Below are positions 26,662 to 43,489 of a stretch of 64,000 nucleotides of DNA, in pieces (position 1 is the stretch's first letter; every line of letters begins with the position of its first letter). The stretch comes from Ignisphaera sp. (GTDB lineage Archaea > Thermoproteota > Thermoprotei_A > Sulfolobales > Ignisphaeraceae). Below the pieces are notes generated by a model. That model ran no database searches, had not been told where the DNA came from, and saw nothing but the letters and a program-made list of their open reading frames with translations. Where the stretch lies: NCBI GenBank assembly GCA_038831005.1, contig JAWBKZ010000004.1:186001-250000 (forward strand), written 5' to 3'. Position numbers and translations under genes: made by a program.

Positions 26662-26735
26662 GGGCCCGTAGCTCAGCCTGGTGGAGCGCCCGGCTGATAA
26701 CCGGGAGGTCGGGGGTTCGAATCCCCCCGGGCCCA
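26662..26735 (+). tRNA. tRNA-Ile (GAT)
   Basis: Full cloverleaf: acceptor GGGCCCG with CGGGCCC, D arm GCTC, anticodon loop CTGATAA, T loop TTCGAAT. No intron and no encoded CCA (discriminator A followed by TTA). An A+T-rich TATA-like element lies about 30 bp upstream. Confidence 0.97.
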
Positions 26736-26832
26736 TTACTTTCAATAAATATATCAAGATACTTAAGTAGCATTTATAAGCCACTCACCAGCAACACATA
26801 TATGGTTGTCTAAAGAGGTACCAGAAGATTAT

Positions 26833-26944
26833 GCGGGGGTGCCCGAGCTCGGCCAAAGGGGGCGGGCTCAAGGCTTTATTACCTAATGTGGGAGAGACCC
26901 GCTGGCGTAGGCCTGCGTGGGTTCAAATCCCACCCCCCGCACCA
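26833..26944 (+). tRNA. tRNA-Leu (CAA) with a 24-nt intron and encoded CCA
   Basis: Acceptor GCGGGGG pairs with CCCCCGC; long variable arm; T loop TTCAAAT; discriminator A and CCA encoded. The anticodon stem GCGGG (26862-26866) pairs with CCCGC (26898-26902). The intron (about 26873-26896) lies at the canonical 37/38 position after CTCAAG, to be removed by the splicing endonuclease. Confidence 0.93.
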
Positions 26945-27224
26945 CAATTTCTGAAATCATTGCAAACTCATTATACATTTTATTAATTTCATGTCACATG
27001 CCTAGCGTATAGTGATACAAGAATTATATTATCAACATAATCGTTTTAGTAAGAGGTTCCAGATATCTGCAATGCTGTTGTCACTGAATTTCAGGTGATT
27101 TTATGCTATCTTTATAGATGAGTTGATACTTATGATTATTGTGGATCTGATGAAGTGATGCGGCATTGATATTAATATTTCTGTATCTCTCAGCAGACTA
27201 ACTTTAGATCGAGTTGGTGTAGAT
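26945..27224. other. Intergenic stretch
   Basis: A+T-rich. Contains CTGA and GTGATG words near 27155-27170 that suggest a C/D RNA, but the boxes are not correctly spaced. No gene seen. Confidence 0.35.
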
Positions 27225-27425
27225 ATGAACTATAGTCAGGAAAGTGAAGAAACTTGTGGATGGATAATGAGATGCACTATATGTGGAACAACCTGGATTC
27301 TAGAGGTTAGTTTTGATATAAGGGATACCAAAAGACTTTATCATTTTTGTAGAAAATGTAGATCCAATACATTTCACGAAGTTCTAGAGAGAAAGGAAAA
27401 GAGATCAAAATCTGAAACCAAATAA
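27225..27425 (+). CDS. Small zinc-ribbon protein
   Basis: A 66-aa protein with two knuckles, CTICG near residue 17 and CRKCR near residue 46, forming a four-cysteine zinc ribbon, then a basic tail (ERKEKRSKSETK). Probably nucleic-acid binding. Lies between tRNA genes; family not recognised. Confidence 0.6.
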   Translation: MNYSQESEETCGWIMRCTICGTTWILEVSFDIRDTKRLYHFCRKCRSNTFHEVLERKEKRSKSETK

Positions 27426-27467
27426 TGCTTTTAACCCTGTTTATATCACTAACAATACACTTGTGGT

Positions 27468-27543
<76 letters not shown>

Positions 27544-38111: not shown

Positions 38112-38678
38112 CTACAACTTAATCCACTTAAAAACTATATAACGTATATTGTTGTCATCTCTATCCACGATAGCTAGTACAGAGTGCTTCCTTACACTGT
38201 GGCTAACTCTACCAAGAGCTACTATATCTGTAGGCTTAATTTTGTGTTCTTTAGATACAACAGTAACAACATAGGGTGCATGTTCGTATCCTGGTCCCAC
38301 AGTATATACAGTAAAATCTGCTCCATATTTAGTTCCACCCCTTATGATATAGTTACGATCCCTTAGATATTCATAAACATGATACTTAATATCAAAATCA
38401 TGTGAAACATCTCTACAAAAACTCCATAGTTTATCACAGTCGATAGATTCGCCATTGATACTTACCTCAGCTAAACCTTTCCTACACATGTAGAGAGTTT
38501 CGTACATGGATAAAACTAAAGGTTCTTGATAGCTCTGATCAATCTTAGGTTTTGAGATAGATAGTGGTTTACCGTAGAATCGTTTGAAGAGGACATCGCT
38601 CTGGATTTTATCTAATACTAGGGACTTTCTACCAACAACATCTATCTTGGCTATGTAGTTCTTATCGTATACAGCCAT
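38112..38678 (-). CDS. endA: tRNA-splicing endonuclease
   Basis: A 188-aa endonuclease that cuts bulge-helix-bulge RNA. The catalytic domain has the triad: Tyr in GTKYGADFTVY, His in YEHAPYVV and Lys in SHSVRKHSVLAIV, after the strand YHVYEYLRDRNYIIRG. At this length it is the single-domain crenarchaeal alpha subunit, which normally works with a second subunit (not seen here). Its substrates in this window are the tRNA-Leu intron, the split tRNA-Gln halves and both rRNA processing stems. Start overlaps the upstream gene by 28 bp. Confidence 0.92.
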   Translation of the reverse strand: MAVYDKNYIAKIDVVGRKSLVLDKIQSDVLFKRFYGKPLSISKPKIDQSYQEPLVLSMYETLYMCRKGLAEVSINGESIDCDKLWSFCRDVSHDFDIKYHVYEYLRDRNYIIRGGTKYGADFTVYTVGPGYEHAPYVVTVVSKEHKIKPTDIVALGRVSHSVRKHSVLAIVDRDDNNIRYIVFKWIKL

Positions 38679-43141: not shown

Positions 43142-43179
43142 TGGTAGCCGGGCGGGGATTCGAACCCCGGTCACGGGGG
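43142..43179 (-). tRNA. tRNA-Gln (TTG), 3' half of a split or long-intron gene
   Basis: Reads CCCCCGTGAC, T arm CGGGG-TTCGAAT-CCCCG, acceptor CCCGGCT, discriminator A and encoded CCA. It pairs exactly with the 5' half at 43335-43372 (acceptor AGCCGGG, anticodon stem CGGGG). Its 5' leader GGGTAGCGGCGGTTA (43203-43189) is the complement of the tail of the 5' half. Joining after G37 gives the loop CTTTGGC and a normal cloverleaf. A TATA-like element (43235-43250) lies about 35 bp upstream of the leader helix. Confidence 0.88.
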
Positions 43180-43234
43180 CTCTTTTCTTAACCGCCGCTA
43201 CCCAGAGAGCTAGACAATACCAGTATAGATTGAA

Positions 43235-43250
43235 GGTATTTAAGTTTTAA
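43235..43250 (-). promoter_or_regulatory. TATA-like element before the tRNA-Gln 3' half
   Basis: Minus-strand TTAAAACTTAAATACC, followed about 25 bp later by the predicted start near 43215, a few bases before the complementary arm at 43203. It lies inside the 155-nt interval between the halves and would let the 3' half be transcribed by itself. Confidence 0.5.
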
Positions 43251-43334
43251 TAGATCCTCTAAAAATTTTTTAGAAATATTCTGCACCGAATAGGGACATA
43301 ATATGATATGTTGTGTGGGTAGCGGCGGTTAGAT

Positions 43335-43372
43335 CCAAAGCCCCGCATCCTTGGCCGCTAGACGACCCGGCT
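43335..43372 (-). tRNA. tRNA-Gln (TTG), 5' half of a split or long-intron gene
   Basis: Reads acceptor AGCCGGG, T8 C9, D arm GTCT...GGAT with AGCGGCCAA loop, G26, anticodon stem CGGGG, then CTTTGG. The next bases ATCTAACCGCCGCTACCC are complementary to the leader of the 3' half (14 bp perfect plus TCT/AGA with one bulged A). CTTT pairs with AAAG between three-base bulges GGA and AGC, an exact bulge-helix-bulge. Position 33 is T, the anticodon TTG. Confidence 0.88.
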
Positions 43373-43400
43373 ACTTCAGAATAACTTATCGTTAGCTAAG

Positions 43401-43411
43401 GTTAAAAATTT
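43401..43411 (-). promoter_or_regulatory. TATA-like element before the tRNA-Gln 5' half
   Basis: Minus-strand AATTTTTAACC, centred about 34 bp before the tRNA 5' end, giving a short leader of roughly 9 nt. Confidence 0.5.
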
Positions 43412-43489
43412 TGTAGTTAGTGAGATCCTAGAGGAGATTACAGAAAAATTTATAAGCTTTTCGCTCAAAGAGTTAAGAGGTAAGCTCTT

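Follow-up and report, generated by a model that had tools for sequence, protein, structure and literature searches.

A probable split gene for tRNA-Gln(UUG) with adjacent halves in an Ignisphaera genome

Introduction

Split tRNAs are central to the debate over the age of tRNA pieces, which may be ancient or of recent origin. Few examples had been described, with 29 trans-spliced genes in seven genomes by 2014 (PMC4033280). The closest described system is tRNA-Asp(GUC) of Aeropyrum pernix, which is divided at position 37/38 and has a gap of 121 nt, a GC stem of 14 bp and an internal promoter, and for which northern blots revealed two transcripts, the full-length precursor being detectable only by reverse transcription PCR (RT-PCR) (Chan et al. 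2011, PMC3218864). Here we describe a tRNA-Gln(TTG) gene of the hot-spring archaeon Ignisphaera sp. that is interrupted by 155 nt and is, on balance, probably split into two adjacent parts that together encode tRNA-Gln(UUG). It lies at positions 43142 to 43372 of a stretch of 64,000 nt, hereafter the window (assembly GCA_038831005.1, contig JAWBKZ010000004.1, positions 186,001 to 250,000; C4:186001-250000 in our numbering), to which all positions refer unless a contig is given; the window genome (G000) is a draft of 1.70 Mb in 9 contigs with a completeness of 99.5%.

The locus resembles the A. pernix gene in its adjacent halves on the same strand and in the right order, its 37/38 joint, its strict bulge-helix-bulge (BHB) motif, its GC-rich arm, the strong TFB recognition element (BRE)/TATA promoter in the gap, and the single-copy, essential nature of the tRNA, while it differs in specifying Gln instead of Asp, in a gap of 155 nt against 121 nt, and in that the two transcripts, seen by northern blot there, are putative here. 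The tRNA-Gln(UUG) of Nanoarchaeum equitans, which is split at 32/33 and whose halves lie on opposite strands at a great distance from each other (Table 1 of PMC3218864), is the same isoacceptor made from two halves, whereas the window gene is divided at 37/38 and its halves are adjacent. The tRNA-Asp of Thermosphaera aggregans and the tRNA-Lys of Staphylothermus, which belong to the same archaeal order, were split recently and independently, as the window gene probably was, yet they concern other isoacceptors and their halves lie on opposite strands or about 4.5 kb apart; the arms of Desulfurococcales split tRNAs measure 13-14 bp, in comparison to 18 bp with one bulge in the window. A literature search found no paper on a split tRNA in Ignisphaera or Fervidicoccus, which does not disprove that one exists. 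As far as this search shows, a split tRNA with adjacent halves is a known kind, while there are no reports of this isoacceptor at this site, of this genus, of the recurrence or of the endonuclease introns described below.

Structure of the interrupted gene

Both halves are encoded on the minus strand, the 5' half at 43335..43372 (positions 1-37, with the anticodon TTG) and the 3' half at 43142..43179 (position 38 to the encoded CCA), which are exactly the limits and the 155-nt spacing of the original prediction. Each half is 38 nt long and perfect, and the joined halves, AGCCGGGTCGTCTAGCGGCCAAGGATGCGGGGCTTTGG+CCCCCGTGACCGGGGTTCGAATCCCCGCCCGGCTACCA, are identical over their whole length to the uninterrupted tRNA-Gln(TTG) gene of congeners; the original prediction was thus correct to the base, and the insert occupies the canonical intron position 37/38. 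Inspection and folding gave a strict BHB as had been described, with a 4-bp CTTT/AAAG central helix and the bulges GGA and AGC; its 5' side lies at 43332..43340 (minus strand; CTTT helix and GGA bulge, cut expected after 43335) and its 3' side at 43175..43186 (minus strand; AAAG helix and AGC bulge, cut expected before 43179), and the resulting junction is that of the intact orthologues. The arm trailing the 5' half (TCTAACCGCCGCTACCCA, 43316..43333, minus strand) pairs with the leader of the 3' half (TGGGTAGCGGCGGTTAAGA, 43186..43204, minus strand) in a duplex whose single bulge, an A, had been predicted correctly and whose length is 18 pairs instead of the 17 reported earlier. The energy of this duplex is -34.0 kcal/mol, whereas 2000 shuffles average -8.1 kcal/mol and go no lower than -21.4 kcal/mol. 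The gene was missed by plain ARAGORN and by Rfam; when long introns were allowed, ARAGORN called a Pro(TGG) over the same span with a shifted joint, a call that was rejected as the intact orthologues identify the gene as Gln(TTG).

No second tRNA-Gln(TTG) gene was found in the 99.5%-complete window genome, where an intact copy had been proposed as a sign that the halves are relics. Besides the gene described here, 44 tRNA genes were identified (45 in total), among them a single other Gln gene (CTG, C3:154275, with an intron of about 20 nt), and four genes of the window use 17 CAA and 13 CAG codons. Because the only other Gln gene carries the CTG anticodon, the interrupted tRNA-Gln(TTG) is needed for reading CAA. 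The other tRNA introns visible in this genome are short, the longest ARAGORN call being 39 nt, and archaeal tRNA introns range from 11 to 129 nt with a median of 15 (PMC3218864; range as of 2011), so that an insert of 155 nt lies beyond the length of an ordinary intron.

Promoters of the two halves

To score promoters, Gibbs sampling was applied to the sequences preceding the 44 other tRNA genes, giving a 14-position model (consensus AAAGCTTATAAACC); the window gene was kept outside the training set. A TATA-like element had been predicted before each half, and both were recovered, the one of the 5' half being ordinary and the one of the 3' half exceptional. The latter, the BRE/TATA element AAAACTTAAATACC (43235..43248, minus strand), scored 14.3 bits, which is higher than 42 of the 44 tRNA promoters of the same genome and is reached in approximately 1 of 1000 Markov resamples (0.001), while the best antisense score in the insert is 5.0 bits. 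On both strands of the 64-kb window it is the second-best site; the sole higher one, at 43460, is by its position probably the promoter of the divergent gene for transcription factor B (TFB). The internal promoter lies 44 nt upstream of the arm, and the median distance from promoter to mature tRNA in this genome is 46 nt. Among the lines of evidence for a putative separate transcription unit of the 3' half, this promoter is the strongest. The promoter of the 5' half (AAAATTTTTAACCT, 43399..43412, minus strand) scored 8.0 bits, rank 12 of 44, and is separated by 40 nt from the 5' end of the mature tRNA. The predicted T-run between the halves exists at 43265-43261, within a T-run and small hairpin (CTAAAAAATTTTTAG, 43259..43273, minus strand) that may terminate the 5'-half transcript, for which it provides weak evidence.

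Taken together, five of the features by which a split tRNA with adjacent halves is recognized were found at this locus: a complete canonical tRNA from two pieces, a BHB at the joint, long GC-rich arms, a putative promoter for the 3' half, and the sole source of the isoacceptor.

The locus in other Ignisphaera species

The window genome was compared with ten further species of the genus. The gene lies between TFB and an agmatinase-like SpeB, in a region that is collinear on both sides with that of the nearest relative, in which Gln(TTG) is intact at the same locus (L048/L090); other congeners carry an intact Gln(CTG) there. Because the nearest collinear locus is intact, the insert looks recent and the locus a young example, which agrees with the early stage of splitting that had been suggested. 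Judged by the TFB protein adjoining the gene, the closest genomes that bear a name are those of Desulfurococcaceae Bin S23, at 89%, and of several Ignisphaera, at 80-83%. As a separate observation, the tRNA-Gln beside TFB is TTG in some congeners and CTG in others, indicating an anticodon change or a replacement between the two Gln genes.

A second Ignisphaera species (G006), apparently Ignisphaera sp. SKYB63 judging from an identical stretch upstream of the tRNA, has a tRNA-Gln(TTG) interrupted by 175 nt at 37/38 (G006:C36:13761-13991). Its insert has a perfect arm of 15 bp with T5 directly after the arm tail, and AGAGCTTAAAATCC, a TATA element that lies 58 nt upstream of the exon (9.6 bits, p 0.028). 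This gene stands at another genomic place than that of the window, and the collinear gene in a third species (G011) is intact. Homology between the two inserts was considered and rejected, only the exons being matched, and the simplest reading is that they are two independent events. The third species also has, at G011:C10:81230-84250, a third tRNA-Gln-like gene (CTG, without CCA) followed directly by a second tRNA-like sequence.

Forms of tRNA-Gln(TTG) across the order

A survey of the order covered 214 genomes, of which 71 carry a Gln(TTG) 5' half that is not continued directly by the 3' half with a C. Where the insert was measured, its length is usually 12-39 nt; two inserts are of 61 nt and one is of 97 nt, and lengths of 145, 146 and 169 nt occur in genus g20. 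The members of this genus (G063-G067) show in this same tRNA a 36-nt intron, these 145-, 146- and 169-nt inserts, and an endonuclease insert of 726 nt. The loci of G064 and G066, with inserts of 145 and 146 nt, are 94% identical; the arm with its pyrimidine tail and the TATA element with its arm are kept and the spacer has drifted, which is the pattern of two putative transcription units. The promoters of g20 are not recognized by the model of the window genome, which was therefore set aside for this genus.

In 18 genomes from three other families (G018-G021, G112-G118, G129-G135) the 3' half stands at a separate locus. These halves carry a complementary leader of 11-18 bp, built in the same way as the arm of the window, and in most of the 18 genomes a TATA-like element lies 48-65 nt before the exon of the 3' half. 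Where the contigs are informative, the halves are truly distant: in G116 and G117 they lie on opposite strands with about 3.6-3.9 kb between them, and in G115 the distance is 46 kb. Trans-split tRNA-Gln is thus apparently widespread and unreported, and the relatives appear to show the same or later stages of the splitting of tRNA-Gln(TTG).

In other relatives, a LAGLIDADG homing-endonuclease gene lies antisense inside tRNA-Gln(TTG) at 37/38, namely in G065 (726 nt; a locus joined from two contigs that overlap by 99 nt), G158 (727 nt) and G039 (711 nt). The gene is intact and encodes about 200 aa in G065, is frame-broken in G158 and has at least one stop in G039, while G091 holds the 3' half and a portion of the endonuclease gene. 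The best-scoring homologues of this endonuclease in the order are all within tRNA-Gln(TTG). These introns and LAGLIDADG introns of archaeal rRNA have a BHB junction and a long terminal stem like the window gene, and those in tRNA-Gln occupy the same insertion site; unlike them, the window insert contains no LAGLIDADG reading frame and is only 155 nt long. The endonuclease introns supply a rival explanation for the window gene, namely a mini-intron that has lost its endonuclease, and may also be the origin of the entire series.

Alternative explanations

The evidence agrees with the pair of readings offered by the original prediction, a split tRNA or a giant intron that carries an internal promoter, and the internal promoter and the A. 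pernix layout favour the split. The alternative of a single long cis-spliced intron supposes that one precursor of about 231 nt folds on itself via the long stem and that the tRNA splicing endonuclease EndA removes the 155-nt insert at 37/38; in a variant, the insert could be the leftover of a mobile intron after loss of its homing-endonuclease gene. The halves are indeed on the same strand, in the correct order and only 155 nt apart, the relatives have homing-endonuclease introns with similar long GC stems in the same tRNA and position, and even for A. pernix a low-level full-length RT-PCR product was obtained (PMC3218864). We nevertheless regard a cis-spliced intron as unlikely, if a serious contender, since a sense promoter that exceeds 42 of 44 tRNA promoters at the right spacing is unexpected in an intron (0.001 by shuffles), and since tblastn with the endonuclease of the relatives found no remnant of it in the insert and no match elsewhere in the window, and the window genome has no homologue at E <= 1e-6.

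Several points weigh against the split reading. The T-run lies 51-55 nt past the arm, unlike that of the second Ignisphaera species, which follows the arm directly; the promoter model supports the promoter of that second species only modestly and is blind to the promoters of g20; 61-nt inserts with long arms occur; and the endonuclease introns of 711-727 nt, which are presumably cis-spliced and have long GC stems, indicate that a long gap need not mean separate transcripts.

Introns of tRNA-Trp host a C/D-box small RNA in some archaea, and the window insert, which is of that order of length and has a promoter inside, might likewise be a long intron hosting a small RNA or give an independent short transcript from the internal promoter. 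This is very improbable, for Rfam at a permissive threshold detected no such RNA, the promoter is followed after 44 nt by the arm and then directly by the 3' half, and the insert is unlike that of the second Ignisphaera species. That the locus is a relic or an assembly artefact is scarcely credible: the exons common to the two Gln genes of this genome do form a 38-base repeat in a draft of 9 contigs, but the exons are flawless, the genome uses CAA codons and has this UUG-Gln gene only, the locus is collinear on either side with the uninterrupted one of the nearest relative, and the insert has a matched arm and a BHB.

Proposed mechanism

Under the preferred reading of a split gene, two separate RNAs probably pair and are joined by splicing to give the tRNA. 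The 5'-half RNA, consisting of exon, 18-nt arm and trailer, would start from the promoter at 43412-43399, and the 3'-half RNA would start about 26 nt past the TATA box, near 43218, with a GC-rich leader, and end after CCA. The two RNAs would pair via the 18-bp arm to form a standard BHB, which EndA would cut, and a tRNA ligase, which in archaea is RtcB, would then join position 37 to 38. As no more than 155 nt separate the halves, some cis-splicing of read-through transcripts is likely too.

Other features of the window and its genome

The catalytic subunit of EndA, which cuts BHB motifs, is encoded in the same window at 38112..38678 (minus strand), 4.5 kb from the interrupted tRNA-Gln, with matches to PF01974 (99.3 bits, C4:224142-224396) and PF02778 (34.8 bits, C4:224424-224636) in the same frame. 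The 45 tRNA genes identified in the genome include no tRNA-Pro(CGG), which is either absent or in an assembly gap; a second split tRNA was considered for it and dismissed, as no second Pro 3' half was found. At 26662-27543 of the window, tRNA-Ile(GAT), tRNA-Leu(CAA, with a 24-nt intron) and tRNA-Ala(TGC) stand in a row upstream of a 16S rRNA gene. The three tRNA-Gly genes (L013, L015 and L016) have near-identical flanks on both sides, indicating recent duplication or conversion.

Significance

For one tRNA within one archaeal order, intact, short-intron, endonuclease-intron, adjacent-halves and far-apart-halves forms are found, sometimes within one genus, and with these forms side by side in related species, the direction and mechanism of splitting are therefore testable. 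Tentatively, and with more doubt than confidence, we propose that a mobile BHB intron with an antisense, site-specific LAGLIDADG endonuclease may target tRNA-Gln(UUG), that loss of the endonuclease may leave an insert of about 100-175 nt with a long stem and a promoter, the 3' half becoming its own unit (the window, G006, G064, G066 and G067), and that rearrangement may then part the halves (the 18 genomes). If this origin were true, split tRNAs would be what a selfish intron finally leaves behind, and each stage of the process could still be seen.
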